64,000 nt of DNA from Aurantiochytrium sp. KH105 (taxonomy: Eukaryota; Sar; Bigyra; Thraustochytrida; Thraustochytriidae): NCBI GenBank assembly GCA_003116975.1, contig BGKB01000008.1:594561-658560 (forward strand). Reading direction: 5' to 3'. A program made the position numbers and the translations under genes. Positions 33,495-62,605 of this stretch are shown here, in pieces. The notes beneath the pieces are model-generated. The model had not been told where the DNA came from. It did not search any database and was given only the letters and a program-made list of their open reading frames with translations. Numbering within the stretch: position 1 is the stretch's first letter; every line of letters begins with the position of its first letter.

Positions 33495-33881
33495 GTCGTT
33501 CGAATGCGAGTGGAGTGTGGTCAGTTGGACGGCTGGCGTGCTTGCATTCTGAGAGTCTCTCGTGAGTCTCGCAGACAAGTATTCATGAAAACAATATTCA
33601 ATGCGTGACAAAATGGATGCACTTTGACGCGCTTGAGATTCAGAGCGAGCATATTCTCGCCACGAAAGAGAGAGAGAGAGAGAGAGAGAGAATAAAAGTA
33701 GAGTCTAAAGTGGGGGCGTGCGACCGCCCCAAGAAAGGAAAACAACGTTTCATGGCTACGTTACTAATTATCGATTTGTATTGATTCCTTTCAACGTACA
33801 TCAAGTGGCCAACAATGCCCAAAGCTGGGGTACGAATAGTCAAAGGAACGAAAGAAACTTTCGAGCAAAAGGCCACGCGGC
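33495..33881. other. Convergent 3' intergenic interval
   Basis: Contains the 3' ends of the VPS9-like and NELF-A genes and a perfect GA run (33667-33690). No gene seen. Confidence 0.55.
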
Positions 33882-35081
33882 CTACTGGATCTTGTACTTT
33901 TTTCGAGTCGTTGCTCGCTTTGCGCCGTTCGTGGCATAGTCTAGCTTGAGGTTGACGTGGGTGACGAGCATATCATTACCTTCAAGTGTGCGCGTTTCGT
34001 TGAGTAGGATGGCCATGACGCCCTGTTTAGGTCGATTTGGGTTGTTCTTGTCTGTGTAGAACTTGATCACCTTTTGGCGTGCACTGTCATCGAGCTTGGT
34101 GTTTTCTGGATCGAGCAGGATCTTGCGCATGCCTTCTGGAACCTCTGACGGGAAATCGAGAGATGGAGGAGCAGCTGTTGGTGCTGTTGTAGTCTGTGTT
34201 GTTGGAGTCTGTGTTGTTGGAGTCTGTGTTGGAGTCTGTGACTGTGCGCGGGCAGCTTCTTGTTTCTTTTCTTGCTTTTGCTGTTTCAGTAGTCGCTCTT
34301 GCTCTTGTTGCTGCTGACGAGCACGGGCGTTTTCCTCCTCGAGCTGTTTTTGTTGCTGGAGCCTCTGCTTTTCGATCCGTTGCAGAACTTCGTCTTCACT
34401 GGCGGCCGGCTTGAAGTGACGATTGTGATCTTCAATGTCAATGTCTTGTGGCAAGAGGTGGGAGGAGAGGAAGGGCCATTCAAGGGGCACAAACTCTGGA
34501 TTCATGCGGGGTCTGGACTCGACGTCGCCCGGCCGTGGCCATGAGGTATTGGGCGTCTCGACCTCAAGGGCGATGGCGCGAATCGCCTCGTGCAGGAAGC
34601 GAGCGGCGGGGTCATTTTCAGTGGGGGCAAATAAATTGAGGGACCTAGCTTTGTCCTGACCATTGTTGGCAAGTTCGGTCTTGGCGAGCTTCTCAGCGGC
34701 CTTTTTGGCCTCCTCAACGACTGCGTCTTCCTTGGGCTTGGTATCGGTTTCGGACGCAGACGCTTCACCTTGGGATGCGGAGTCGATAACGTCCTTGCTT
34801 GCGGGAAGTCGCTTGCGAACGAGGGCGAGGATGACGCGTACCCACTCGTCCGAGTCGGCAGCAGCTGACTTGAGCACTTCGTCGACCTCGTCTGCAACAC
34901 TGGCGAGCTGTGAGACGGACATGGACAGCAACGAGAGGAGGACGCGCAGTCTAATGCTGAGTTCAAACGTGGAGAACTCCTTGGCCATGAAAGTGAGCCG
35001 CTCGCGCGTGAGCAGCGGGACGAACTCTGGCGCCGTCCAGTCGCCGCGCAGCTTGTTCTCCACAAGGACGCTCTCCTCCAT
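33882..35081 (-). CDS. NELFA: Negative elongation factor A (NELF-A) homologue
   Basis: NELF-A is part of the complex that, with DSIF, holds RNA polymerase II in promoter-proximal pausing. This 399-residue protein matches both conserved ends of the family. Residues 6-90 (VENKLRGDW, LSIRLRVLLSLLSMS, ADSDEWVRVILALV) align with the N-terminal NELF-A domain shared with hepatitis delta antigen-like proteins. The last 65 residues (NRPKQGVMAILLNET, LDYATNGAKR, KKYKIQ) align with the conserved C-terminus that ends in FKKYK in animals. Between them lie a Gln/Arg/Glu-rich coiled coil (about 235-280) and a Thr-Pro-Gln linker (285-315). It is shorter than the human protein (about 530 residues), losing mainly the disordered middle. 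NELF is missing from yeast and plants, so its presence in a microbe is notable. Confidence 0.85.
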   Translation of the reverse strand: MEESVLVENKLRGDWTAPEFVPLLTRERLTFMAKEFSTFELSIRLRVLLSLLSMSVSQLASVADEVDEVLKSAAADSDEWVRVILALVRKRLPASKDVIDSASQGEASASETDTKPKEDAVVEEAKKAAEKLAKTELANNGQDKARSLNLFAPTENDPAARFLHEAIRAIALEVETPNTSWPRPGDVESRPRMNPEFVPLEWPFLSSHLLPQDIDIEDHNRHFKPAASEDEVLQRIEKQRLQQQKQLEEENARARQQQQEQERLLKQQKQEKKQEAARAQSQTPTQTPTTQTPTTQTTTAPTAAPPSLDFPSEVPEGMRKILLDPENTKLDDSARQKVIKFYTDKNNPNRPKQGVMAILLNETRTLEGNDMLVTHVNLKLDYATNGAKRATTRKKYKIQ

Positions 35082-46002: not shown

Positions 46003-46776
46003 GGCTCGTCCCGCGGCGCGCCCCCTCTCTCTATCTATCAACCAGTCTATCAACCTCTTTCGCTTCACTCCGCCCCGCCTGGAGCGACTTGGTCCCGACG
46101 CCGGGCCTGACTCGGCCCGCCACGCCTACGTGCACGACTACGCGCGCGCGCTCGGGGCCGCGGGCTGTTTGCGCTTTCCATCGACGAAAAGATCGATCGG
46201 CAGGAGCAGAACTAGTCTAGAACTAGTGGCAGTTACTGTAGCTTCTGGTCACCTGGGACCCTTTTCTGCTCGCTTGTCGGTCGTTGCAGACGCTCCGGCG
46301 CGGCGAGAGCCCTAATGGGGAGGCATGCGGCGGCCCCGCGCGGAGGAGCGCGAGCGCCAGCCAGGTCGGTCGAGGAGGCGCGCACGCACGCATGCAGAGA
46401 TGCAAGCACGCACGCGAACAGGTATGCAGGCAGGCAGGAGCGGACTCTGGAGAAGGCGGGAAGTAAGGATGCGCGCGATTGCGGCGGAGGGCGGCGGCGC
46501 CTCACACGTCATGGCGAGGCTTGCCTGCCGCAACAAGACAAGCTTTTCCGGTTCCAGGCAGTGGTCGGTCGTGTATACTATAGTATCTTTCCGTCACAGG
46601 CGACAAACAAGCGGTTGTATGCGAAGGCGTAATAAGGAAGGGGGAGCAGGAAGAGGTCGGCGGGGGCGGATGGGACGCAGACCCCGAACCCGCGCAGGAC
46701 GCACGAAGCAAGTCAGACGGCAGCGCGCGCGCACGCAAGAAGCACTCGCAGGCGTACTCGCGCCACAAGGCTGAGG

Positions 46777-46824
<48 letters not shown>

Positions 46825-46832
46825 CAGGCGCG
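46003..46832. promoter_or_regulatory. Divergent region between sedlin and the acyl-CoA dehydrogenase
   Basis: An 830-bp GC-rich interval with ACGC/GCAGGCA-type repeats (46380-46440) and (CAG)14 (46780-46821) just before the dehydrogenase start. No gene seen. Confidence 0.5.
46780..46821 (+). repeat. (CAG)14 in the acyl-CoA dehydrogenase leader
   Basis: Fourteen perfect CAG triplets ending 11 nt before the ATG and out of frame with it, so they lie in the 5' leader. Confidence 0.9.
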
Positions 46833-48113
46833 ATGGGCGAGGAAGAAGAGGCGGTGCAGTTCGGGTCGAAGACGCCGTACGCGGAGCCTGCATGGTACAA
46901 CTCGAAGAACGAGAGCGCGCTGTACAATGAGAACCATGTGGCCTTTCGCGCCAAGATGCGCAAGTTCGTGGATGAAGAGGTGATCCCCAACGTGAGCGAG
47001 TGGGAGGCCAACGGGATCCCCAAGGAAGCGTACAAGAAAGCCGCCCAGGTGGGGCTCTTGCCCACCGTACTGGGGTGGCCCGAAGACTGCGTGAGCCAGC
47101 CGCGGCCCGAAGGCATGGACGGCCTCATGCTGCTCATTGCCATGGACGAGCTCTGCCGGTGCGCTAGCGGTGGCGTGGTCTGGGGCCTCGTCGGAGCAGC
47201 TGGTATCGGCCTTCCCCCTCTCGTGCACTACGCCTCGGACGAGATCAAGGAACGCGTCGTCAAGCCCGTGCTGGACGGCGAAAAGTTCGCAGCCCTTGCA
47301 GTCTCTGAAGCAGGCGCCGGATCTGACGTGGCAAATCTCGCCACCACGGCCGAGGAAGATGGCGATGACTACGTAATCAATGGTCTTAAAAAGTGGATCA
47401 CCGGCGGCATGTTTGCCGACTACTTTACCGTGGCTGCGCGCACCGGCGGCGAGGGCTCCGGTATGTTCGGCATCAGTCTTATTCTGGTCGAGAAGGACCG
47501 CCCGGGTGTCTCGGTGCGCGCAATGGATTGCATGGGTGTCAAGGGCTCCGGAACCGCCTTTGTCGAGTTCGACGACGTGCGCGTGCCCAAGTCAAACTAT
47601 GTTGCCGACGTGACCGCCCTCATTCGCAACTTTACCACGGAGCGACTGGGCATTGCGGTCCAGGCTAACCGCTTCGCGCGCGAGTGTCTCCGCATGTCCA
47701 TCGAGTGGACACGCCGCCGCCAGGCCTTTGGCAAGCCGCTCATCGACAACCCCGTTGTCCGCAACAAGCTTGCTGAAATGGCACGCCAAGTTGAGGCGAC
47801 CCATGCTTACATTGAGTCGGTGGCCTTTCGCATCGTGTCCCAGGAACGCCGCGGTGACGACTGGTTCCAGGGCCTCCTCACGCTCAGCCCCGACGCCGCC
47901 ATGGTCAAGGTCCAGGCCACCAAGACGTATGCCCACTGTGCATCACAGGCCGCCATGCTCCACGGCGGCAATAGCTACGTCCGCGGTGGCCAGCACGGTC
48001 GCGTAGAGAGCTTGTATCGTGATGTCCTCTCCCTTGCCATTCCTGGTGGCGCAGAAGATGTCATGATCGACTACGCCGCGCGTCTTGGCATTGCCAAGAA
48101 GTCGCCTCTTTGA
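46833..48113 (+). CDS. Acyl-CoA dehydrogenase family flavoprotein
   Basis: A 426-residue protein with the three-domain acyl-CoA dehydrogenase layout. An N-terminal helical domain (about 30-150) is followed by the FAD-contacting beta domain with LAVSEAGAGSDVANL (155-169; AMTEPGAGSD in relatives) and YVINGLKKWITGG (180-192). The C-terminal helical domain contains RQAFGKPL and ends near IPGGAEDVMIDYAARLG (399-415). The family oxidises acyl-CoA thioesters at alpha-beta. The catalytic Glu of medium-chain enzymes sits in a YEGT context in this last region; here the candidate is the Glu of GGAED. Substrate class is not clear from sequence. There is no obvious mitochondrial presequence: the start is acidic (GEEEEA). 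The last residues SPL are only a weak match to a peroxisomal PTS1. Confidence 0.9.
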   Translation: MGEEEEAVQFGSKTPYAEPAWYNSKNESALYNENHVAFRAKMRKFVDEEVIPNVSEWEANGIPKEAYKKAAQVGLLPTVLGWPEDCVSQPRPEGMDGLMLLIAMDELCRCASGGVVWGLVGAAGIGLPPLVHYASDEIKERVVKPVLDGEKFAALAVSEAGAGSDVANLATTAEEDGDDYVINGLKKWITGGMFADYFTVAARTGGEGSGMFGISLILVEKDRPGVSVRAMDCMGVKGSGTAFVEFDDVRVPKSNYVADVTALIRNFTTERLGIAVQANRFARECLRMSIEWTRRRQAFGKPLIDNPVVRNKLAEMARQVEATHAYIESVAFRIVSQERRGDDWFQGLLTLSPDAAMVKVQATKTYAHCASQAAMLHGGNSYVRGGQHGRVESLYRDVLSLAIPGGAEDVMIDYAARLGIAKKSPL

Positions 48114-48735
48114 AAACGATGATACGTTTTTTGCTTACCCCGTTTTAATTTTTTTTTATAAAAGGAAACTCCACTTGGGCCAAACTGCTTGCTCACTCGT
48201 GTAGATCAGCGGAATGATGCTTCGTCTTCTTGCTGCACGTTGAATGAAAGAGGATGACATTCCTTCGACGTACCGAAGAAATAATATTTCCGTGCGTGCA
48301 AGAATAGCAAACAAACTCACAACGAAAGTATCTTCGATTCCCAAACATTTGTGAAAGAAACAAAACAAGATGTGGTTCGTCGTTTTGGACGTGAGAGTCT
48401 TCTGTATTGAAAACGATCAGAGTCCTTCTCTCTTGCGCGCTCTCCACGTCATGGCTATGTGGTGATGCGAGGACGATCTCATGTGAAGATCAAAAACAAC
48501 GCCGTGGTGTAATCTGCGAGCATGATCGCGAGAATGACAACTGATTGGAACAACAGCTGACAAGCGCTCTGCAAAATGGACATCATCATCTTTATGATGT
48601 TGTAAAAGCGCAGAATCATTTCCACTTTCTTTTCTTTTTTCGGGCCCCACCCACAAAGAGAAAGAGAATCGAGAGAATCATCAAAGAATAACAAGCCAGA
48701 GACACGTCACCACTAAGGTACGGGTGGTGACCGAA
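48114..48735. other. Intergenic interval right of the acyl-CoA dehydrogenase gene
   Basis: AT-richer DNA holding the 3' end of the dehydrogenase gene. No gene seen. Confidence 0.5.
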
Positions 48736-48858
48736 ATCTCGTACCTGAAGCCATCGCCGACAATGTCCGGTGTAAGAAGCGGGCGGAGCTTCTTTTCAAC
48801 TTTCGCACGTACGCCTGGGTCTTGAACGCGCTCTGCCATATAGCGACGAAGCGACAAT
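48736..48858 (-). pseudogene. Tail-only relic of the LRR-kinase-RING gene family
   Basis: About 35 codons on the minus strand read RRYMAERVQDPGVRAKVEKK followed by LRPLLTPDIVGDGF. They match the last residues of the intact gene next door (REYVAKKIEDPDMRADVQNM, LRPLLTPDIVGEGF). The frame then runs past the normal stop position and nothing upstream (48860-49300) resembles the zinc clusters, so this is a decayed fragment of a third copy rather than a gene. Confidence 0.8.
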
Positions 48859-49603
48859 CGGACCGGCCGACTCGGGTGCAGCTCCGCTGTGCATGCGGTC
48901 GCCCGGCCGGGTCGACGCGTGTTTGCAGCTGCCAGACAACGAGATGAACCCCCAGCGTATAGTACAACTTGCAAAGTAGCTCGCAATTTGCGTTGCTCAG
49001 AATGCGTTGCGCAAGCAAACCACCGGACGGTGAGCGCACGAACTTCGTTTTGCAGCCTGGCAGTGAGGAAAACGAAGACAAGCGCGACGGGAGCACGTGC
49101 GCTTTCAGCTGCTCGCGTGCGGCGTGCGTCATGCGGCGCATTTCAAAAATCGAATCGTTGGAGTGTATCCAAGAACGTGTACGGTTTGTCATGGCGCGGC
49201 TACAGTGAATGGATATCCTCTTTTCCCCGTCACTTCCGACGTGTTCGTTGCCTTACTAAGAGGGAAGCCAGAGTAAGTACGCACGCACGAGAGCAGCTTG
49301 GTAACAGAGGTCGTGGCGATTAGCAAAGACTACCCAAGTCTGTCAGCTGCGAGCCCGAGCTTCAAGCAGATACGCGAACTCCATTCAACGAGAATATCCG
49401 ACCTTTGCCGTAATCTACAGTGGATTCGCTAATTCGCTACGATATTCGCCGCTCAGACTTACGTTTGTTTTGTCAATACTACCGCACCCAGTTTGGTCAT
49501 CCTCACGTACTCTGGACGTTGATAAACAGCATATTTCGAAATTCTACCCCTCTGTGCCATCGAATAGGCGAGCATGAGAAGCAAAAGCAATGTGATCTAT
49601 ATT
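48859..49603. other. Intergenic, no gene seen
   Basis: Between the relic and the stop codon of the intact receptor-like gene. Short frames only; possibly eroded sequence from the lost copy. Confidence 0.45.
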
Positions 49604-52600
49604 TTAGGAAAAAGTGAAACCTTCGCCGACAATGTCCGGCGTAAGAAGTGGACGCAACATATTCTGAACATCGGCACGCATGTCTGGGTCTTCAATTTTC
49701 TTTGCCACATACTCACGAAGACGTTGCGCTCGAAGCCGAGCCCATGCTTGCTGTACGACGGCGAAATCGCTAAAGAACGGGTCTTCTTCATCATCTGGCT
49801 TTGACGCGCATCTTGCCACGTGTTGGTGGCAAGCCTGTGACTCATCGCCTGTGTCCTGCAGACACCACGCGCAAAAGTAGCACTTGCACTTGTCATTGCC
49901 ACATTCAAGAGCACAACAGTTGTCAAAATCAGCAAAGACTGTCGAACAGCGCGGGCACGACATATTGAGAACGTCATTTTGGATCGTGAGAATGTGATTT
50001 TGCGCTGTCGGGTTCAGCCCATGTTCACGAATAGCTGCATCAATACGAAGCTGAAGCTGGCGTTCCTGCTCGGCTGCGACGTCTCGCTCGATATGCTGGC
50101 GCACAATATCAAGCAGAGCTGCAAAGTCCTCGTCTGGAACTGCGGCTGCAATGCAACGTCCAGGGATAACAAGATCACAGTCTTGCGTGACACAACACAT
50201 GTTTCCGTGCCGTAATACCTTGACGTGCGACTGAGGCTCAGTGGCAGCCCGTACCGACCTGCTCAGGCACTCTTTGCACGTAAAGTGGTCATCAGCGCAA
50301 GAGACGCCCTCACTGACGGGGTAAATGTCGAAACAAAGGGCACATGAGGCATCTTTCACGGGCTCAACCTGAAAGGCTTCGTGACGCAAGGCCTCGAGCG
50401 CAGTGGGCCGTTGATTTGGATCTTCGGACTGCAAAGACGAAATGAGCTTCGTAGTTGCGTCAGATACCTCTGTTTCCCTGAAGAGGTCCGCGAGCATCAC
50501 GCCTACAGAGAACATGTCCACTGCAGGCTCGACCTTGTCGACATTTCCGTTACGGTGCTCTGGCGCCATGAACTTGATGGTGGCCTGCATCGGCTGCGTC
50601 ATGGTTACATTGTGCGTTTGCACGCCATCAAAGTCGCCCAGCACCGGCGACAGACCCTTTGCGAGAAAGACATTTTCGGGCTTCACGTCGCAATGCACGA
50701 AGCCTTGCGCGTGCAAATCGTGAAGGCCGGATAGAAGTCCGACGGCGATGCGCCTGCGCATTGCCAGGTCTGCACGCGGATTGTTGTGAATCCAAGCAGC
50801 AAGATCACCGCCTTCGTAATATGGCATCAAAATGCAGCCCTCGCGGACATCCTGCATGAAAACGCCTTGAACGCGCACGATGTAGGCCGATCTGAACTGA
50901 GCAAGAGCTGAAACCTGACGATAGAAACGACTGCTCCACTCTTCGTCGGCGAGATGGAAAGATTTAAGCACATATTCTCGGCCGCTGAGATCGCGAACTC
51001 TATGTACGGACTTGCCAGGTTTGGAAGCAAGCTTTGCAAGCGTCTCGAAATCTCCGCGCTTTGCATTGGTCAGCCAGAGACCTAGCATGGATAGCTCCCG
51101 AGGCACGTTAGCTTTCATTCCCAAGCTCCGGATCCAATCTTGATCGCAAAGCAACTCAGGGTAATGTTCCTCCGCATGCCTCAGCACCCTTGCGCGCTCT
51201 TTGCGCAGCTCGCTATCCATTTTGTAAATACTTCCGATCTGAGCGAGTTCTTGCTCGAGGCCGGGAATTTTGGCCTGCGCTTGAGCATCTCCGTCATTGG
51301 CATCCTCGCGGGTGTGTCGAAGTTTTAGCTCAAGATCTTCACGCTTTCTTTCACTCTGGCGAATGCTCTTGATCATTTCCGTCACACGTGGTGTGTCTGG
51401 TGCTGTGAGCCCGGGAACATGCCGGGAAAGAGAACATAAGAGGTCTCTGGCGGCCGTCTGCAAGCGCGAGACTTCGTCTTTCACTGTGGAGGAGGTGTAG
51501 AAGGAGATGGTGATAGCCAACGCACGTCGCACCTCCTCTAACGGGGCGTCTATCAAAGGATCGACCTCCGTCAGGGTCCTAAGCTCCTCTTCAAATGCTT
51601 CCTGCACCTCTTTTAGCTCCCTCGCGATATCCTTTGTCTTCTCGGGATGTCTCAACGTCATAAAGGATGTCGTCTGAAAACCAAGGCGCTTGGTGCTCTC
51701 ATCCAAAGCATCGATGGCTGCTTCGGTGTGCTTGCGCGCCACGCTCGCGTCGTGTCGAGTCCCCCAGGCGTTTACGGCCTCCAGCGCGGCTTGTGTAGCT
51801 TCCTGCACTTGTTCAAAGGTCACTGGTGCGGCAACATCGTCCATGTCCACGGGTTCTTTCAAGATCTCCTTCAACAGACCATGGCAGGCGTCTACAGCGG
51901 CCTTTGTTCCTGGATCCGCCAATACCTCCTCCAGTTGACCTTCAATTCCCCCTGACAAAGCATCTCGGATACCCGCGACGAGGTCGCGTCGGATTTCGTC
52001 CCGTATAGATATCTTTTCCGAGTCTGTCTTGACAGCCTCCTGGAGCGCAGTCAGCTCTTGCGCCTTTTCGCGAAGAATCGCTTGCTGTCTATCGAAGTCT
52101 GCAAAAGATGCGACCGGGTTCTTACGCAAGAGCTGCTCGGCAAAGACCCCGAGCAGCCCCGGATGCAGAGTAGGTTTGCCTTCTCCGCGCTTCGTCCGCG
52201 CGAGAGAAACCCTTTCTGCCAATGCTTCGAGATTGATTGTCTGCCCAGAATACGCAAACAATATGAGCAATTCACGGCGATCTGGCGAATTTGATATACC
52301 CATTTGATCGAGACGAGTAGAAGTGAGATTGCGAGCTTCTTCCAGCGTTCGCACTTCCTGATCGAAAAGCTCAACAAGCTTCTCTCGCAGCGCATTGGTA
52401 CGAAATTGTGTCAGCGGTAAAGAATGTACAAAAGAAAGAAATGCAGACAGCTCCACGCGATTCTTAGAAGAAGTATACGCAAGTGCCATCTTCACTCCGA
52501 TAGACGTGCTTGAAAGGTCTGCGCTGTGCTTGAAGAGAAACTTGACAAGAAGGAGCGCATCATCTGTGTCGCTAGCTTTGCAGGCGTGGAGCAGTGGTGT

Positions 52601-52769
52601 TTGGCCGAAAATGTCGCGCACGTCGACCCGGGCCCCATCCGCTACGAGGTCTTTTACCGTCGAAACCTTGCCCTCTTTGCACGCCTGCATGAGCGGCGTC
52701 AGACTCTCTTCGTACAGAGCCCGACTGCGGTCAAGAGCAGCTTGAAAAGTAGAACTTTCGAGTCCAATG
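49604..52769 (-). other. Terminal exon: ankyrin, coiled-coil, kinase, RING and second zinc cluster
   Basis: This exon alone is a 1055-codon open frame. Read as a stand-alone ORF it extends to 52837 only through the 61-nt intron and begins at a GTG, so it is not an independent gene. The acceptor is ATATCACAG before CATTGG. Confidence 0.85.
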
Positions 52770-55087
52770 CTGTGATATGAGATTGTCAGAAGAAGGTTGT
52801 TGCCGGTTTGGTGTTCTCCTTGTGACTTACTTGACACGCTGCCGCAAATCCTCGTTCTTCACAACTGCCTTTGCCAGCGCCGTCGCGCCCTCGTCGCCGA
52901 TATTGTTGCTCTGAAGACTGCGCTCGTCATAACATGAGACGCCAGGATGAACGAAATTGCGCCAAGGGTTGCATTTCGTCGCAACCAAGGCGTGCGTGAG
53001 TGCGTACGTGAGTTGTGGTCAGCTGTTGTTGCTTTCTTCTTGGGCTTCTCGCCTCACTTTCACTTTGTCGCAATGACTTACTCTAGCGCCTGCAGCGTCT
53101 CATTGCTCGCGAGTGCGTTCGCCAGCGCCGTAGCGCCCTCGTCGCCGATATTGTTGCGATAAAGACTGCGCTCGTCATAACATGAGACGCCAAGATGAAC
53201 GAAATCGCGCCCAAGGGTTGCATCCCGCCGCATCCCATGCGTGCGTGTGTACGTGAGTTGTGGTCAGCTTTTGTTGCTTTCTTCTTGGGCTCCTGGCCCC
53301 ACTTTCACATTGTCGCAATGACTTACCTTAGCATCTGCAGCGACTCATTGCTCGCGAGTGCGTTCGCCAGCGCCGTAGCGCCCTCGTCGCCGATCTTGTT
53401 GCCGAAAAGACTGCGCTCGTCATAACATGAGACGCCAAGATGAACGAAATCGCGCCAAGGGATGCATTCCGTCGCATCCCATGTGTGCGTGCGTACGTGA
53501 GTTGTGGTCAGCTCTTGTTGCTTTCTTCTTGGGCTTCTGGCCTCACTTTCACTTTGCCGCAATGACTTACAATAGCGTCTGCAGCGACTTGTTCTTCGCG
53601 AGAGCGTTTGCCAGCGCCGTGGCGCCCTCTGCGCCGATATTGTTGTCTGCAAGACTGCGCTCGTCGAAACATAAACATGAGACGCCAAGATGAACGAAAT
53701 CGCGCCAAGGGATGCATTCCGTCGCATCCCATGTGTGCGTGCGTACGTGAGTTGTGGTCAGCTCTTGTTGCTTTCTTCTTGGGCTTCTGGCCTCACTTTC
53801 ACTTTGTCGCAATGACTTACTATAGCATCTGCAGCGACTTGTTCTTCGCGAGTGCGTTTGCTAGCGCTGTGGCGCCCTCGTCGCCGATTTTGTTGCCTTT
53901 GAGACTGCGCTCGTCATAACATGAGAAGCCAAGATGAACGAAATCGCGCCCAAGGGTTGCATTCCGTCGCATCCCATGCGTGCGTGCGAATGTGAGCTGT
54001 GGTCAGCTCTTGTTGCTTCTTGGGCTTCTGGCCCCACTTTCACTTTGTCGCAATGACTTACTCTAGCGCCTGCAGCGACTTGTTCTTTACGAGTGCGTTT
54101 GCTAGCGCTGTGGCGCCCTCGTCGCCGATTTTGTTGCCTTTGAGACTGCGCTCGTCATAACATGAGAAGCCAAGATGAACGAAATCGCGCCCGAGGGTTG
54201 CATCCCGCCGCATCCCATGCGTGCGTGCGTACGTGAGCTGTGGTCAGCTTTTGCTGCTTCTTGGGCTTCTGGCCCCACTTTCACTTTGTCGCAATGACTT
54301 ACTTTAGCGTACGCAGCGACTCATTGTTCGCGAGTGCGGTCGCCAGCGCCGTAGCGCCCTCGTCGCCGATATTGTTGCTCAAAAGACTGCGCTCGTCATA
54401 ACATGAGAAGCCAAGATGAACGAAATCGCGCCCAAGGGTTGCATCCCGCCGCACCCCATGCGTGCGTGCGTACGTGAGTTGTGGTCAGCTCTTGTTGCTT
54501 TCTTCTTGGGCTTCTGGCCTCACTTTCACTTTGTCGCAATGACTTACAATAGCATCCGCAGCGACTTGTTCTTCGCGAGAGCGTTTGCCAGCGCCGTGGC
54601 GCCCTCTGCGCCGATATTGTTGTCTGGAAAACTGCGCTCGTCGAAACATAAACATGAGACGCCAAGATGAACGAAATCGCGCCAAGGGATGCATTCCGTC
54701 GCATCCCATGTGTGCGTGCGTACGTGAGTTGTGGTCAGCTCTTGTTGCTTTCTTCTTGGGCTTCTGGCCTCACTTTCACTTTGTCGCAATGACTTACTAT
54801 AGCATCTGCAGCGACTTGTTCTTCGCGAGAGCGTTTGCCAGCGCCGTGGCGCCCTCTGCGCCGATATTGTTGGCTCCAGGACTGCGCTCGTTATAATATG
54901 AGACGCCAAGATGAACGAAATCGCGCCAAGATTTGCATTCCATCGCATCCCATGCGTGCGTGTGTACGTGAGTTGTGGTCAGCTCTTGATTTGGGAGGTC
55001 TTAGAATTTGTCATTTACGTACCTGATTTTCGTCGCGCCGTTTTTGATCGCCTCAATCGCCCTGTTGAGCTTATCATGGTCGCACAT
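49604..55087 (-). CDS. LRR-ankyrin-kinase-RING receptor-like protein, 11 exons
   Basis: I assemble 11 exons, 5' to 3': 55023-55087, 54798-54881, 54548-54631, 54303-54386, 54062-54145, 53821-53904, 53571-53654, 53327-53410, 53082-53165, 52831-52917, 49604-52769. All introns are GT-AG and phase 2, giving 1329 residues. A TAG lies in frame 12 nt before the ATG. Residues 22-275 are nine leucine-rich repeats of the ribonuclease-inhibitor type (L-x-x-N-N/K-I-G-D/A-E-G-A-T-A-L-A-N-A-L). Then come ankyrin units (298-362), helical/coiled-coil sequence (about 400-830), a kinase domain (850-1074; VLKSF, HCDVKPENV, DFDG, MAPE), a RING-like C-x2-C...C-x2-C cluster (1084-1139) and a second Cys/His cluster CPRC...CAWC...HVARC (1213-1262). 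A role in recognition, signalling and ubiquitin transfer is inferred. HCD replaces HRD, so the kinase is of the non-RD type. Confidence 0.83.
52770..52830 (-). other. Intron joining the LRR array to the ankyrin-kinase exon
   Basis: 61 nt, GTAAGT donor and TCACAG acceptor, phase 2. It has no stop in the downstream frame, which is why the ORF appears to run through it. Confidence 0.82.
52831..54881 (-). repeat. Tandem array of nine LRR exon-intron units (about 241-250 bp period)
   Basis: Eight exons are exactly 84 nt (28 codons, phase 2 in and out) and the most 3' one is 87 nt. Seven of the introns between them are 157-166 nt and nearly identical: GTAAGTCATTGCGACAAAG donor region, a central CAAGAAG/AGCTGACCACA block, an ACGTACGCACG-type run and a GACGAGCGCAG acceptor. 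The oldest-looking unit is the one next to the kinase exon. Spacing of successive exons from left: 251, 245, 244, 250, 241, 241, 245, 250. Confidence 0.9.
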
Positions 55088-58000
55088 TGCCGCAATCTAG
55101 TTGCACTCGAGAATTTTCTACGTGGCCTTCTCACAAAACGAAAAGCGCAGCACGAGACCAATGATCTGCTTGCAGCTTCGACACTGTGGACACGTCTATC
55201 TTCACAACGTCGTGATGGCAGCGTCTCACGCTTGAAGACACGAGAGCGGGAACTCACGGAAAGTTGCGAGCGTACGCAAGCGAGCAAAAGTCGCAGCGGC
55301 GCAGCAGTCAGAGGACACCTACCCGCGTGCACGAGGGCAGAACGAATCACCGTGGCTTGGGGGTTCTTGTAGAGTATACCGATGTATTTGCTGCCGGAGT
55401 CTCGTGAGATGCTGGTTTGCCCTATGTGCACAGCCATGCGCGTCGTACTGGATTATGCAGGCAAAAATGGATCGCGAGAAGTCCAGACCACAGCCAGCAT
55501 AATCGATAATAATTCATTTACGATTTGTTTACAATAGATCCGTTGGTCAGCCCTGACTGTCCATGTTGCCTGGACTCGGCCGCGGACTTGGACTTGGTCA
55601 TGATCTGTTGCTGCGCCCTTCTCGCGCGTCATATCGGGCGCGCGCCTGCTTGCTCTGTCGGTACGCCGCCCTACAGCGCGGCGCTCCGCGCGTGGGAGTC
55701 GCAGCTTTGACAATGCGGTTCTGAGGACCGTAGGCATTAGGTGTTCCTACGCTCGCGTACAGTGCGAATAGCGGGGAGAGCGTCGAGGCCAGGGGCAATT
55801 TTTTTTTCAAAGGCACAGATTAGGATGGGCCTGACATTTGGCCTACTGGCTTGCAGATAGATGCCTGTGGAGAAGTTGCGGTTCGAGAGCGCAGAAAGAG
55901 CTGCAGAGGCGAAGCGCGACGCTTTTCTGCCGCTGGATTTTTTTTTATAGCACAACTTTCTTGGGGAGTGATGAAGGTGGTCGAATTTCAATGCAGGAAC
56001 AGTCAGGGCGCGTCGGGCAGCTGCCTCACCGTGCTCTCGCGTCCGATCTTCGTTGGTGACCAGGGACTGAGAAAGATCGAGCGAGGGACAAAGCGAGATA
56101 TTTGTTTCAAAGTTGGCGAAACATCCTTTGCTGCGTACGTATAAGGTCGATGTGTCTGGTAGACAAAATATGTCCGTTGTGAAGGAAGCAACTTGCTCAG
56201 CAGACGAGCTGGCCAAGGCAGTTGATTTGGCCAGCTCGAGGGGTCTTGCGCGCTGCAGGCTCATGTTGCGTCTTGCGCCGAAGGCATGCACATGAGCGAC
56301 ATGCGCTCGGGCCAGGCGCCGAATGACCAGCCCCTCTAGTAGTCGTTGTCATCGTCGTCGTCGCCGTCGTCAACGCTGCTCCTCGTCAGGCGGGCCTCGA
56401 GAGTGTTGAAAGGCGGCCGTGACAGCGCTAGTGCTTTTTTTCCATTGACAACGATCACGTGCAAGTACTTTATCCATGCACAGCAAAGTGAGCAACTGAC
56501 TTTGGCAAGTGCACAATTCTCTTCCTGCTCCACTCAACGTACGCATTCAACGATCCTTTTCGCCTCGTTTCCGACGGTCGCAGACGATGATGCTCGGCAT
56601 TACGGAGACGTTGGGTCGCTGCGACACAGTCTGGAGACTTCCTGCCGAGCCTCGTAAGCGCGCGCGCTCTTATGTCACGAACCAAGACGGCCCGCGTGGA
56701 CGCCGCGCGGAGCAACCTGGAGATGAGCCGACGAGGATGACAAGCAAGGATGGCAAGCGCCGAGGCGCGAAGGCGCAAAGGCGCGGAAGCGAGTGCGGCC
56801 GCCGCCGGCGCGAGCAAGACGCGAGAGGAGCGGGAGCTTGAATCTGGCGAGCTGCTGCGGAGGCGTGCGCGTCGAACAGACTGTTTCACGCCGCTCGACG
56901 ACTCGACCTCGGGTGCGCGAACAAGCAAGGCGAGGAAAAAATTTCTGCAGCGTCCAAGGCCCTGGCGAGCGCTTGTGATCGAAAATGACTTGAGCGGTGC
57001 AGCGTGATTGTGCTGTGCAATGGGCTACTTGTGCGTGTGGCGGGCTTGTATTGAGATCACGTTCAAGTTAGTTGCAGCAAAGTCGATTGTTGAAGAATCG
57101 CGGCTGCTGGCGCCAATCGCTTTTTCCATGCGGCAGTTGATGGCGACGCCGGCCATCATCGCTCGTGCGAAAAGCAAAAGCATAGGCGCCATGTCGTCAA
57201 AGTCGTAGCTTGCTCCTGGGCACCATACGCGAAATCCTCGGCCGTTGAAATGGCCACAGTCGGCGAACGTGGCTGTGCTGTTGCTGTTTCGCGTAGTGAG
57301 CAAAGGCCGGAGGGCGTCGAATCCACGCGAGGAGACCTAGCTGGCGCTGTGCGATGGAGGTCTGTGTCGTTGACAATGGCTCACTGGCTGATGAACTTGG
57401 ACACTGAGCGCTCGAGATATGCTGCCGCCTGCATCGTGTGAGCTACTTGGTCGCCTACAATCTCGCTCTTTCCTTTTCTGGCGTCTCTTGGCTGAGCAGG
57501 CTAGAAGCAACGTTTGAACGCCTTTCTGCGGGTCTGTCAGATGAGCTTGCGTGTTCAGCAGACATCCTCGTCGCTGTCAGGCAAGACTGGCGCCGGCCTT
57601 GGCAAAAACTTGAACCTCGTTGACCTCATCGTGTGCCCACGCGCGAACGAAAGCATTCCCGGCCGGCTGGCTTGCTATAAATTAGCACACACGTTGCAAT
57701 AAATAACCAAAGAAGACGGGGCGCCGAGTACGGGTGCTGCTTATTAAACTGGGGAGAGTCTGAAACTGAGCCGTCGTGCTTGTCAACCAAAGCAGCTTTC
57801 AACGATGATCTCAAAGACAATACGGTAGCGAAGAATGTAGCTTGAGGTTGACTCGTGGCCGTATGGCCAAAATCAAAACGGGAATGAGAAAGGGCAAGGA
57901 CTTGCTGGTTCTAATAGTTGACTGGATTCGAAGATTTGCGTATCTTTTCGTACGCTGGCGATTATCATAGCATTTCGACTTGTAGAGACATTTCAGCCCC

Positions 58001-59694
58001 AAATTACGACACCTTTATGACCCTGGTGTCACGCAATTCGTGCTTGCACGTCACATGGTCCTGTTCTCTCTTGCTACTTGCTGTTATTCTCGCGATGCGC
58101 TGACGAAATGTCGGGCAAACGAAGCCGGCACGAGCCGGCGCGTTGGGCGCAGCGCCGACTTAGCTCTTGCCCGCATCTACAACGTAAGCATTGCTTCTGA
58201 GGTAGCATGAGACTTGGTGCTTCTCAAGGCCGGGAGTGGCGACGTGAAGGAGGCTTGGGCCATCACTTGGATCTTCGCAAGAGTAATGCCAGAAGGGAAA
58301 AAAATATTCGCCATTTGCAGCAGCACTCTCAGCTTTGCTTACTCTCGGCATCGCTCACGGTCAAACTCGTACATGCGTATCTTTGCCACAATGACGGAGT
58401 CCGCCTTGATGATCTTGTTCATGCCAGGACCAGATCGTGCAGGATTGCGCCTTTCAAATCTAATTTCGAGCAGTGCGCGGAGGGAAAGGGGAGAAGGAGG
58501 AGAGAAAGGGGATGTCCGAAGCTGCGGCACGCGCCGCGAGGGCCGCCTCGAGGATGCTGCTGCTGCTGCTGCCAGGGTCCGCATCGCGCGCTGCGCCAAA
58601 GCGGCCTGGGTGGCAGGCTGGCCGGGGGCCCAGGGCCCGAGGAGGAGACGCGCTGCCCCTGGTGGCTGCCGAGACGATGATACCTGGGAGGCGAACCGAG
58701 TGGGCTCGCGCGGGGGAGGGGGTGGAAAGGTGGTCGTGCAAGGGCAACTTCCGTGGCCGCCAAAGAGCTCGACTGAAAATCTTCATCATCATGCATCTTC
58801 TTATTCTTACTCTCGGCGAAGTGTCGCTCGGACGGTGGTTATTGCCATACGGCGGTATTAGAAGACGTTTGGCGAGAGACGGGGGCGAGACCAGCTGTGA
58901 GTTGGTTGAGCGCAAGCATTTTGTTTCCTCCTTTCATGGGATAAAAGGCATGACAGTGATAAGCACGTCTTTTCGAGCAGTGGCAAGCATTCGCCCTTGA
59001 TTCTTCTTCTCTTGGGCCAAACAGGCCTGACCAGACTGCCTCGAGCGCCACGCGTCTGGCTTTGGCGTCGGTGTCCAACTTGCCGCGCTGCAGCTGCGAG
59101 CTCGTCGATGTGGGTGCCAAGATCTACAACAGCAAAGTGTTTCATCCGTGCGCTGCAAAGTGAATCATTGGCCCGTGCAAATGAACAAACAGTCAGGCGC
59201 AATTGGCAAAGGCTTGGCGAGTCTCTCTTGTCTCATCGCCGCTGCCAACGCAGAGATGATGCCCGAAGTCGCGCGGAGACGCTAGGGCGCGCCCAGGCAG
59301 CGCGCGAACCCTAACAGAGGGCGTTGAGAGCCCGATGTGCTCAGGCGGACGCGCGCTCGTGGCAGGTCTCGCCGCAGTGCCTTGCCGCAGGGAGCGGCTT
59401 GGAGGTGGATGGATTGAGCCAACGACGATGAGCCCAACGACGAGCGAAGGCGCGAAGGCGGCGACTGCAGGCGCGGGCGTCGGCGACGTGAGCGAGAGAG
59501 CCAGGAGAGAAGCGGGGGCCTGAGAATGGTGTGCTGCGGTGGAGACGTGCAAGTAAGAAAGACCGCCTCGCGCTACCCGACGGCTCACCGTACGTACAGC
59601 AACGTGGAAGGCGAAAAAAAGGCTGCCGCAACGTCTTGGGCCTCGGCGAGCACTTCAGGTCAGGGCAAGGGCGTTTCAAACATTCTCGCAACAT
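55088..59694. other. 4.6-kb interval without a recognisable gene
   Basis: Less GC-rich and less repetitive than the left desert. Some minus-strand fragments look mildly protein-like (57025-57303, 92 codons; 58345-58470 around GMNKIIKADSVIVAKIRMYE; 58160-58330), but none has a family match, a long frame or a convincing splice partner. They may be decayed genes or exons I cannot connect. Confidence 0.4.
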
Positions 59695-61540
59695 TTACCA
59701 GTCGAACCTAAAGTTTTCGCCGACAATGTCCGGCGCAAGGAGTGGACGTAGGTTGGCCTGGACGATGGCACGTATGCCTGCATCCTGAATACGATTTGTC
59801 ATGTACTCACTGAGTCGCTGTGCTCGAAGTCGAGCCCATGCTTGCTGCACGACAGCGAAATCGCTAAAGAATGGGTCCCTTTCCCCAGCAGGCTTTGACG
59901 CACATCTCGCCACGTGTTGATGACAAGCCTGCGAGTTATTGCCTGCATCCTGGAGACACCATGCGCAGAAACGACACGGGCAAACACCGCATGACAGAGC
60001 ACAGCAGCCGTTAAAGTCGGCAAAGGCTGTTGAGCAGCGCGGGCACGACATGACGAGGACTGAATCCTGAATTGTGTGAAGGTGATTCTGCGTCGTCGGA
60101 TCCAGCCCATGTTCACGCAGAGCTGCATCGTGACGAAGCTAGAGCTGGCGCTCCTGCTCGGCTGCGGCGTCTCCCTCAAATGCTTGCGCGCAATGTTGAG
60201 CCAATTCGCAAAGTCTTTTGGGACAGCAGTTGCTATGGCATGTCCTGTGATGAGGAGTTTGCAGTCTGACGCGACACAACACATGCTGCCACCGCGCAAG
60301 AAATTCACGTGAGCATCAGGCTGAGTCGCGGCACGAACTAAGTGACCCAAGCACTCTTTGCACGTAAAGTGCCCGTCAGCGCAAGAGACGCCCTCATCGG
60401 CGGGATAAATGTCGAGGCAAATGGCACACGAGGTCTCCTTCACAGGCTCGACCTGAAAGGCCTCGTGATGCAAGGCCTCGAGTGCAGTAGGCCGCTGACG
60501 TGGATCTTCAGGCCGCAGAGACGATATTAGTGACTTGGTTGCTTCTGATATCTCTGTGTTCTCGAAGAGCTCTGCGAGAACCACGCTCACAGAGAACATG
60601 TCCACGGCAGACTCAACTTTGTCAACAACTTCGTCGCGCAGCAGCTCGGGCGCCATGTATTGCTTGGTCGTTTGCAAAGGCTGCGTCATGGTCACGTCGT
60701 GCATCTGGACGCCGTCAAAGTCCTCTAGCACTGGTGAAAGACTTGGTGCGAGGAAGATATTCTTTGGCTTGATGTCGCAATGCACGAGACCTCGCGAGTG
60801 CAAATCGTGCAAACCGTACAAAAGACCGGTGGCGATGCCCCTGCGCGTCGCCAAGTCTGCAAACGGGTTGTCTCGGATCCAGGCATCAAGGTCGCCACCC
60901 TTGTAAAAGGGCAACAAAATGCAGCCCTGATGCGCATCCTGCATGAAGGCGCCCTGAATGCGCACAATACAGGCTGATTCTTATCTGAGCAAGCACTGAC
61001 GCTTGACGGTAAAAGCGACTGCTCCGCTTTTCGTTGGCGAGATGAAAGGATTTGAGCACAAAGTCATGGCCATTTAGATCGCGTAGAAGTAGGACAAATT
61101 TGCCAGAATTGGATGAAAGCTGCGCGACAGTCTCAAAATCTCCACGCGTTGCGTTCGTCAGCCAGAGACCCAACGTGGACAGCTCGTGGGGTATGCTATT
61201 TTGTATGCGCAAGCTCTTGAGCCAATCTTGGTTTTGTATCAATTCAGAAAAATGTTCTTCCGCATGCTTCAACACCCGTGCGCGCTCTTTGCGCAGCTCG
61301 CTGTCGAGCTTGTAAACACTCCCGATCTTAGCAAGCTCATGCTCGAGGCCAGGAATTCGAGCTCGAGCTTCTGTATCTCCGTCATTGGCATCCTCGCGGG
61401 CGTAGCGAAGATCGTGTTCAAGCCGTTCACGCTTCCGCTTCGTTTTGTGCATTCTTTGCATGATCTCTTCTATGCGCGGCTCAGATAGTCCGGAAACGTG
61501 CTGAGACAGCACCTCGGTGAGCTCTTTGACGCGCTGCTGG
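59695..61540 (-). pseudogene. 5'-truncated, frameshifted copy of the kinase-RING gene
   Basis: Aligns with the intact neighbour from just before its DANDGD/RKERARVL helical segment through the kinase domain (GGDLDAWI, HCDIKPKNIFL, DFDGVQ, MAPE), the RING cluster (CAICLDIYP...CKECL) and the CPRCSTAFADF cluster, to the shared tail LRPLLAPDIVGENF. Leucine-rich and ankyrin parts are absent. It is broken by a one-base insertion near 60978, a one-base loss near 60178 and an in-frame TAG at 60139-60141. A pyrimidine tract plus CAG at about 61537-61552 precedes the first conserved codon, as if this began as a splice acceptor. Sequence between the breaks is still well conserved, so inactivation looks recent. 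Confidence 0.87.
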
Positions 61541-61555
61541 AAAAAAAAATGACGA

Positions 61556-62605
61556 AAAAACAAGAAAATGAGGTGTGGCTTTGTGGCAGGAGATCGAGAG
61601 AGCGAGGAATGGCAGAGGCAACGCAAAGGCAGGAATGGTCAGCGAAATACTGAGGCAAGAGCTGAGCGTGGTTGCTTTTGCTGTCTATGACCACGTGCGA
61701 CAGTGAAGGATGGTTCAACTTGAGCAAAAAAGACGAAATCATAATGGGAGCGAGTGCTCATGGCAGGCGTTTGCTAGGTCACGGCCACGAAAAAAGTACG
61801 CGCGTGGCAGAGCGAGGCGGCGCAGGGTAAGAGCTAGTGCTGAGGCAAGCGCTGACCTCGCCGGCACAGTCATTGTCTCTGCAGTGGATGCGAAAAGCGG
61901 CTCGTTATCGAGAGCTTAAAAAAATGGCAAGCTGGTTGGGCTTGTTCGTCGCAGATCTCGCTGGGAAGGCTGCAGATCGTCCGCGCAGGCTGTGTACAGG
62001 CTTTGACAAGATTTTGTGGCGTCACGTATGCGTTTTGGCATGGATCAGAGGCCTTGGCGGTGGTCCATGAGGCTTTTGTTTCACAGAAGAGGAGGTGTGC
62101 ACGGGCGAGCGAAGCAGCTACACAAGCTGCAGACCCGATGAGACGAGTTTGCCAAGCGGACAGGCACGAATGAGCGCTAGGCAATATGGAGAGTCGTTTT
62201 TAAGATCATTGACACAGGTTGCAGGTGTGTTTGGTGAGGAAGAGAGCCCAGAATGCATTGCACGTGCAAAGTATTGGCTTGGAGATTGGTCTTACGGATA
62301 GAAAAAGGTGCCGCATCGTCAGCGAGTGGTCAAACTTGCGTGCAAGAGCTTGTGTGAGAGCTAGGCTGAGGATCAGAGAAATACTAGCCGCGTTCGAGGT
62401 GCAAGAAGGTGAGCAAGGTAAAAGTGAACCATATGGGACAGCGTTGGCAACGCACGCGAGAGCACGCAAAGATGCGCGATTATGGCCGCAGAGATTTGGA
62501 AAGGCTAGCAAGCATGAGGCAGATCCACGAGAGCAGTTCTGACAGCGTGCTGTCTGTGCAAGTCAAGGCTAGCGTTGGGAACGAGATGTTGCTTGGCTAA
62601 GTAGA
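61556..62605. repeat. Direct repeat copy A (about 1.05 kb)
   Basis: Begins right upstream of the truncated kinase copy (AAAATGAGGTGTGGCTTTG on the plus strand) and is repeated about 1.4 kb to the right. Shared landmarks include CTGCAGATCGTCCGC, GAGGCTTTTGTTTCACAG and GATAGAAAAAGGTGCCGC. No gene is identified inside it. Confidence 0.85.

Follow-up and report, generated by a model that had tools for sequence, protein, structure and literature searches.

Leucine-rich repeat (LRR) domains assembled from trains of one-repeat exons have been described in several eukaryotic groups, and those of brown algal ROCO genes are reportedly the subject of a study by Zambounis et al. from 2012. In lampreys, the variable lymphocyte receptors (VLRs) are built from interchangeable LRR modules with variable concave residues that are assembled somatically, and Dscam is known for the mutually exclusive choice of its exons. 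As far as the accessible parts of the respective papers go, each LRR exon of the NOD/NLRC genes encodes a single 28-amino-acid repeat and has its border within the beta strand (PMC6642158), brown algal ROCO genes carry 72-bp phase-2 exons of one LRR each that are shuffled, give splice variants and show selection on the concave face (PMC11378527), and the LRR genes of Tetrahymena, which number in the thousands, have phase-2 exons of 90 bp (PMC6564038). Here we describe an array of this kind in the thraustochytrid Aurantiochytrium sp. KH105, in a window of 64,000 nucleotides (the whole stretch of DNA analysed, positions 594561-658560 of contig C8 in an assembly of 76.0 Mb and 367 contigs), where nine tandem LRR exons precede a large exon for ankyrin repeats, a protein kinase domain and a Cys/His-rich zinc region. 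The kind of array is known from brown algae and ciliates; what is new is its partner protein and an unusual intron design. With a probability of roughly three in four, it belongs to a thraustochytrid family of LRR-ankyrin-kinase-zinc proteins whose interchangeable one-LRR cassettes are diversified by germ-line exchange and selection, and whose introns are spliced.

The brown algal ROCO genes share with this array their occurrence in a stramenopile, tandem phase-2 exons of one LRR each, shuffling, selection on the concave face (for the thraustochytrid array, as we read its diversity) and a proposed role as immune receptors, but differ, in the accessible text of PMC11378527, in having 72-bp exons, a 23-amino-acid LRR and a ROC-COR GTPase partner, whereas the thraustochytrid exons measure 84 nt, encode a 28-amino-acid LRR and are joined to an ankyrin-kinase-zinc protein. 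No Pfam match to a ROC-COR domain was found in the gene body at E 0.01, where ankyrin and kinase families alone were matched. The putative distant branch point discussed below is a feature of the thraustochytrid array, and the same portion of the brown algal account describes none. Tetrahymena, in the available part of its description (PMC6564038), likewise has tandem LRR exons of fixed length, an extreme phase-2 bias and ectopic recombination, but it is a ciliate with 90-bp exons; the thraustochytrid case adds a kinase partner and a comparison of alleles within one diploid genome. The original prediction, which had likened the array to the NOD/NLRC exons of vertebrates and held that the same solution in a microbial LRR-kinase would be convergent, was right on the likeness, both having one RI-type LRR of 28 residues per frame-neutral exon with the border in the beta strand (PMC6642158, available in part). 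Novelty outside vertebrates is not supported, the brown algal and Tetrahymena arrays being already in print. The thraustochytrid gene differs from NOD/NLRC genes in that neither NACHT nor NB-ARC gave a Pfam match at E 0.01 in the gene body and LRR array; its cassettes and introns are also far more alike than those of the vertebrate genes, as partially described, and turn over between alleles. VLR modules are similarly interchangeable and variable at concave residues, but their assembly is somatic, whereas the present data, from one genome assembly, give no sign of somatic change. Dscam-type arrays (PMC3236188, available in part) also consist of tandem duplicate exons with possible alternative use, whereas a single thraustochytrid protein can contain all the cassettes. 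In the literature searched, of which the broadest listing was partial and which left subscription papers mostly outside, no title dealt with arrays of this kind in thraustochytrids; the accessible part of PMC8917795 gives LRR proteins as domain counts only. The thraustochytrid case widens the known range of one-LRR exon shuffling, adding another class of LRR and a kinase as effector, and allows similar solutions with exon lengths of 72, 84 and 90 to be compared.

The array is real and ordered, and most likely functional. Its gene lies on the minus strand (55087-49604) and comprises a start exon, nine LRR exons and one large last exon (Table 1). The predicted splice product of 1,329 amino acids is stop-free and every junction is in phase 2, which bears out the symmetric, frame-neutral units foreseen in the original prediction, as does the kinase match for the fusion to a kinase. 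Each LRR exon is bounded by AG and GTAAGT, and Tandem Repeats Finder reports a single array (52854-54988, period 241, 8.7 copies, 89% matches) with a score of 3143, the runner-up in the window scoring 359. Other details needed correction: the range first given, 52831..55087, does contain the array, but also holds an unnamed 65-nt start exon, and the gene runs on to 49604; there are indeed nine one-LRR exons, but the ninth has 87 nt rather than the 84 nt for 28 residues; and the description of the 160-nt introns as near-identical holds for some pairs, but others are about 90% identical, the window's eight inter-cassette introns measuring 157-166 nt with mutual differences of 0-10.3%.

Cassettes were annotated in 21 loci, the window and 20 others, and a start exon of like kind was recognised by its motif in 14 of these, the window counted. 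Together they hold 182 exons of exactly 84 nt (179 distinct sequences, 173 distinct proteins) in arrays of 2 to 17 annotated exons, some of them cut by contig ends; two exons of 87 nt terminate the arrays of C8 and C218. These counts leave out an exon far from its array (C128:9805), an irregular 81-nt unit of C151b, two introns above 200 nt (C219, 218 nt; C151b, 414 nt) and the whole of C122b. A length-free profile built from the 182 exons gave 187 matches, only two of them outside the annotation (an irregular unit and a unit cut by a contig start). Each exon encodes one 28-amino-acid LRR whose junction residue, placed by consensus, is the x of LxL; since 170 of the 182 exons begin with T, the split junction codon is effectively NNT. 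The 161 introns of up to 200 nt have a mean length of 159 nt, with lengths modulo 3 distributed 54/62/45. Their 5' splice site is GTAAGT in 156, retention of an intron meets an in-frame stop in all 161, and skipping any annotated exon preserves the frame.

One cassette unit used as DNA query gave at least 317 matches in the diploid assembly, and a search for the cassette-intron motif gave 98 (reversed control, 0); by the listed unit matches and the intron motif, cassettes occur at at least 34 places on 32 contigs, with two places each on C151 and C122 and one match only on C350. The kinase-zinc region has at least 88 matches (86 scored of 481 candidates), including 54 nearly full-length copies (from residue 11 or earlier to residue 493 or later of 498), four of which have stops inside the match. 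Among named proteins, the best relatives come from the thraustochytrid Hondaea fermentalgiana (Stramenopiles, Labyrinthulomycetes): its protein P0001 is 98.7% identical to the C218 product over 858 residues and 94.5% identical to the window product over 862, values that place the host in this species or near it. LRR, ankyrin and kinase matches are present in named Hondaea proteins of the family, while several Hondaea relatives have ankyrin and kinase without LRR matches in the Pfam annotation. Outside Hondaea, the best named hits to the LRR region of P0012 are NLRC3-like, one unnamed protein scoring higher (among 120 of 443 listed), and coral reaches 57-59% over 75-78% of the query among the matches listed. 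Seen by eye, the Hondaea database models P0001 and P0012 seem to start in or read through cassette introns; the start of P0001 looks like translated intron, so that database LRR counts may be unreliable.

Two flanking segments of the window were compared with the rest of the assembly. Each has a single long second match, collinear and on C218 (46600-48600, 95%; 31000-34000, 97%, besides a 40-base match on C22), and because both match collinearly there, the assembly appears to hold the two haplotypes apart, with C218 as the other haplotype of C8. The C8 array has 9 annotated LRR exons and that of C218 has 13; the terminal exon alone pairs clearly (12 differences, versus 21-30 to the others), with no diagonal elsewhere, and the proteins of the last-exon open reading frames (ORFs) are 93.9% identical. 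The C218 array seems to be complete, to judge by a GTACGT donor 141 nt ahead of its first LRR exon. In another pair, C183 (8 exons) and C151a (14 exons), the C183 flank matches beside C151a at 97% over 1,093 bases, against at most 89% over less than 400 bases for the next best matches; there are, however, dispersed repeats in this flank, and 159 bases of it are in inverted orientation. The last five exons are common to the two and in order (2, 10, 3, 5 and 4 differences), none is clearly shared upstream, and the two loci are probably allelic. As judged from these two homologous pairs, cassette number and order have changed far more than the flanking DNA, in keeping with the predicted diversity through DNA copy-number change, and turnover of the array can be measured in one genome against ordinary heterozygosity (3-5% in two flanks).

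Two further candidates were set aside. The pair C44/C122 was not counted, its flank matching at 92% but being repetitive (17 versus at least 8 exons; best exon match, 6 differences). The C8 5' flank is 88% identical to C270 while the gene body is nearest C218, which is suggestive of exchange, but an exchange between C8 and C270 through the array is not claimed, because the C218 contig lacks nearly all of the matching 5' flank. Part of this 5' flank (about 56767-58473) is a dispersed repeat with some 40 matches of 66-81% identity, many on small contigs, and another dispersed repeat family lies in the C183 flank (L019:8640-9901, query positions 468-851 and 862-1194), where most of 58 matches fall.

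Intron identity averages 0.892 within loci and 0.883 between them, and with likeness within a locus barely above that between loci the cassettes can be regarded as a genome-wide pool. The nearest relative lies in the same locus for 50 of 182 exons (5.5% expected by chance) and 44 of 161 introns. Linkage is short-ranged, falling off over about 12-25 nt (138 units, 106 sites): the approximate r2 is 0.086 for distances of 1-3 nt, 0.041 for 6-12 nt, 0.018 for 12-25 nt and about 0.011 beyond 100 nt, the shuffled value being 0.0072. Taken together, the frequency of nearest relatives in the own locus, the intron identities and the decay of r2 suggest that tandem duplication within loci and exchange between them both seem to act, leaving cassettes that seem mosaic at short range.

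In the standard LRR motif LxxLxLxxNxL, residues 2 and 3 and the junction residue of our cassettes should correspond to x positions of the concave beta strand. Over the 182 exons, nucleotide diversity by codon position is highest at residue 2 (0.73/0.69/0.69), residue 3 (0.71/0.57/0.47) and the split junction codon (0.65/0.49 for the two nucleotides from each exon); residue 5 (0.39/0.19/0.66), residue 8 (0.39/0.46/0.50) and residue 20 make up a second tier. The leucines and most other framework positions have low diversity at codon positions 1 and 2, residue 14 being Leu in 182 of 182 exons, and mean exon diversity is 0.30 at third codon positions versus 0.17 and 0.16 at the others. Mean diversity amounts to 0.211 at fourfold sites of 15 framework codons and to 0.116 in the core columns of the 161 introns. 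Over 9,453 unit pairs, the difference is 0.625 at eight hypervariable sites, 0.143 in the framework, and 0.114 and 0.119 in the flanking introns, which makes the hypervariable sites about five times as diverse as the introns. In seven non-overlapping close pairs, picked for at most 12 intron differences, 12 of 56 hypervariable sites changed, as against 21 of 532 other exon sites and 49 of 2230 intron sites. We read this focused variation as diversifying selection, for which a local mutational bias would be the alternative. The focus on few codons, the lower diversity of introns than of these codons and of fourfold sites, and the intron design described next go beyond the original prediction.

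The introns between cassettes differ from the last intron in the placement of their putative branch point. CTGAC or CTAAC occurs 85-115 nt from the 3' end in 149 of 161 cassette introns and within the last 40 nt in 1 of 161; CTGAC itself is present in 148, about 98 nt before the 3' splice site, its A lying at a median of 59 nt from the 5' splice site. The last introns, whose sequence is different, have the same motif in all of the 21 loci, with its A 14-20 nt ahead of the 3' splice site and 45-48 nt past the 5' splice site. Most simply, CTGAC can be taken as the branch-point motif, which in the cassette introns has shifted to a place about 98 nt upstream. Downstream of it AG is avoided: the next AG upstream of the last 12 nt stands at a median of 101 nt from the 3' end (161 introns), and at 70 nt or more in 98% of introns versus 0.4% when 27 introns are shuffled. 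In the stretch from CTGAC to the last 12 nt, changes that create an AG are seen at 10 of 38 opportunities versus 163 of 214 for other changes (Fisher P 6e-9 overall, 0.017 for transitions and 9e-7 for transversions; all approximate, as introns share ancestry), and in the 5' part of the intron at 17 of 19. The zone is not perfect, an AG being present in 40 of 161 introns, nearly always in its first bases (past the first six bases, 5 of 161). It explains only part of the low intron variability; another constraint or a conversion bias is possible. As for a conserved intron RNA structure, the 27 of 161 introns that were folded gave a mean z of 0.00, and the consensus fold of 54 introns showed short helices only (-2.5 kcal/mol).

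That the cassette introns are spliced is suggested by this anatomy and selection: the exons keep their length and frame although the introns vary in length, no stop interrupts the predicted product, third codon positions are the most variable and the introns avoid AG. We picture an LRR domain put together from interchangeable one-repeat exon cassettes. The introns and exon framework that the cassettes share would permit unequal exchange and gene conversion, by which cassettes would be gained, lost and mixed in the germ line; selection for diversity at exposed residues would keep the cassettes different, splicing would use a branch point some 98 nt ahead of the 3' splice site, and the signal would be passed on by the conserved kinase/zinc region. 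The LRR array is the probable binding surface, and its unit number and surface residues appear to differ strongly between chromosome copies. Family members are probably intracellular sensors; a cytosolic location is expected because the start exon runs directly into the LRRs, and recognition of microbes or non-self is their most likely role. Several observations weigh against this picture. The C218 array lies about 1.3 kb from a contig end, and the start-exon motif was not found there; several arrays are at contig ends, where assembly errors are possible, and some belong to broken genes (the kinase of C151a is distributed over two frames, besides the four kinase copies with stops). Nearest neighbours are in their own locus too often, part of the pattern being plain tandem duplication, and the r2 decay and Fisher P values are approximate owing to saturated codons and shared ancestry. 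Residues 8 and 20, with entropies of 1.95 and 1.97 bits, are not classical concave-face positions, and introns less diverse than fourfold sites provide no neutral yardstick. Kinase activity is uncertain given HCD and DFD motifs, and the zinc region, which may be RBR-like by its Cys/His order, is not proven to be an RBR.

Alternative splicing as the main diversifier, with exons skipped or chosen at random as distant branch points and near-identical 3' splice sites weaken their inclusion, is a possible but doubtful explanation. Every annotated cassette is frame-neutral, and the contrast between distant motifs in 149 of 161 cassette introns and near ones in all last introns fits it, as do the human exons with distant branch points that, in the experimental examples of the accessible part of PMC1431707, are alternatively spliced, and the LRR-exon splice variants of brown algal ROCO genes (PMC11378527, same portion as above). 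It is weakened by the nearly uniform GTAAGT 5' sites, by the YTNAY match, a possible near branch point, that 157 of 161 cassette introns hold in their last 40 nt, and by the consensus after CTGAC, in which no pyrimidine tract is seen by eye. Enforced mutual exclusion in particular is unlikely, the median of 59 nt from the A to the 5' splice site exceeding the steric limit of roughly 50 nt proposed in the available text of PMC7969005, while in the last introns this distance is 45-48 nt. The intron design, with its probable distant branch point and AG-poor zone, permits a direct test of whether exon skipping is what the arrays are built for. Such tests are practical, since thraustochytrids are kept in culture.

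Neutral tandem-repeat dynamics, in which arrays grow and shrink by slippage and exchange without function and variability is drift, would account for visible tandem duplication (three near-identical units on C293), the homogenised introns and the arrays in broken genes, but are improbable: 182 stop-free exons have kept exactly 84 nt although intron length drifts, variation is concentrated on few codons and rare at leucines, and the introns avoid AG. A dedicated gene conversion or hypermutation at junction-proximal codons would have parallels in lamprey VLR assembly and in diversity-generating systems; it draws on the roughly tenfold excess of change at hypervariable sites over introns in the seven close pairs, on two exon pairs of identical framework that differ at 4 and 5 of the 8 hypervariable sites, and on linkage that declines within about 12-25 nt. 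We nevertheless give such targeting a low probability, for diversifying selection with ordinary conversion accounts for the same data, and the bias of codon 3 to NRS and the NNT junction are expected from selection for polar exposed residues and from the constant first T. Arrays at contig ends and broken kinase copies might finally hint at an artefact of assembly or pseudogenes, which is very improbable: the window array is internal to a contig of 658 kb or more and has flanks collinear in the other haplotype, the window gene is open end to end, and named Hondaea proteins of the family have LRR, ankyrin and kinase matches. Beyond germ-line exchange and selection on spliced cassettes, which we continue to prefer, it is conceivable, if rather unlikely, that some 300 or more exchangeable cassettes form a rapidly self-renewing binder library, from which fast conversion at very short range and combinatorial splicing by way of distant branch points would give each strain, perhaps each clone, its own receptor set.

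Kinases with an HCD loop are presumably non-RD kinases by the usual definition, and non-RD kinases are associated with pathogen-recognition receptors. The catalytic loop of the window kinase reads HCDVKPEN (HCD in place of HRD), with DFD at the DFG position; the H, D and N of this loop are invariant across 16 aligned proteins, and its Cys is invariant as well. The C-terminal 250 residues are rich in Cys/His, most of which are invariant in nine aligned paralogs. Profile matches of this region are weak (RNF4, E 0.003; RNF216, E 0.019), no RBR or IBR was matched there by Pfam, and an AlphaFold2 model with nine paralogs was too low in confidence to use (pLDDT 44.5). The middle region of the last exon matches no Pfam family at E 0.01, and NCBIfam gave nothing above threshold, just weaker kinase and ankyrin matches.

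Table 1. Features of the array gene in the window (window coordinates).
Feature	Position	Strand	Remarks
Start exon, 65 nt	55023..55087	-	begins MCDHDKLNRAIEAIKNGATKI; ends in phase 2 at GTACGT; from sequence and predicted splice product
First intron, 141 nt	54882..55022	-	GTACGT..GCGCAG; CTGAC 101 nt from its 3' end
LRR array			Pfam LRR_6, E 1.8e-53
LRR cassette exon 1, 84 nt	54798..54881	-	phase 2-2
Eight cassette introns, with exons 2-8 in between	52918..54797	-	157-166 nt each, GTAAGT..GCGCAG
LRR cassette exon 2, 84 nt	54548..54631	-	
LRR cassette exon 3, 84 nt	54303..54386	-	
LRR cassette exon 4, 84 nt	54062..54145	-	
LRR cassette exon 5, 84 nt	53821..53904	-	
LRR cassette exon 6, 84 nt	53571..53654	-	
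LRR cassette exon 7, 84 nt	53327..53410	-	
LRR cassette exon 8, 84 nt	53082..53165	-	
Terminal LRR exon 9, 87 nt	52831..52917	-	sole exon with clear ortholog in the other haplotype
Last intron, 61 nt	52770..52830	-	different sequence; TTCTGAC, A 16 nt before 3' splice site; ordinary, internal control
Last exon, 3,166 nt	49604..52769	-	ankyrin repeats, middle region, kinase, zinc region
Ankyrin repeats	52511..52699	-	Pfam Ank_4, Ank_2, Ank, E 1.1e-7 to 2.5e-7
Protein kinase domain	50468..51001	-	Pfam PF00069, E 6.4e-29; profile positions 18-195 of 263 matched
Cys/His-rich zinc region, tentatively RBR-like	49808..50344	-	Cys/His conserved in 9 aligned paralogs

The locus seems to be a tandem cluster of family members. 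A second kinase/zinc copy on the minus strand (59695-61638), in several frames and with a stop, is probably a broken paralog upstream of the array; the stretch from this copy to the window end has no annotated cassette exon. Two overlapping ORFs at 48681-49252 (minus strand), one with LRPLLTPDIVGDGFRYE, look like the C-terminal remnant of a third member. A search of the 64-kb window with Rfam at gathering score and a tRNA scan gave no match. Tandem repeats of 36, 57 and 66 nt at 29774-30488 have a Glu/Gln/Leu-rich coding look, and the plus strand holds an open frame of 509 codons (46584-48113), which we take to be acyl-CoA dehydrogenase-like, in a flank with only two genome matches.

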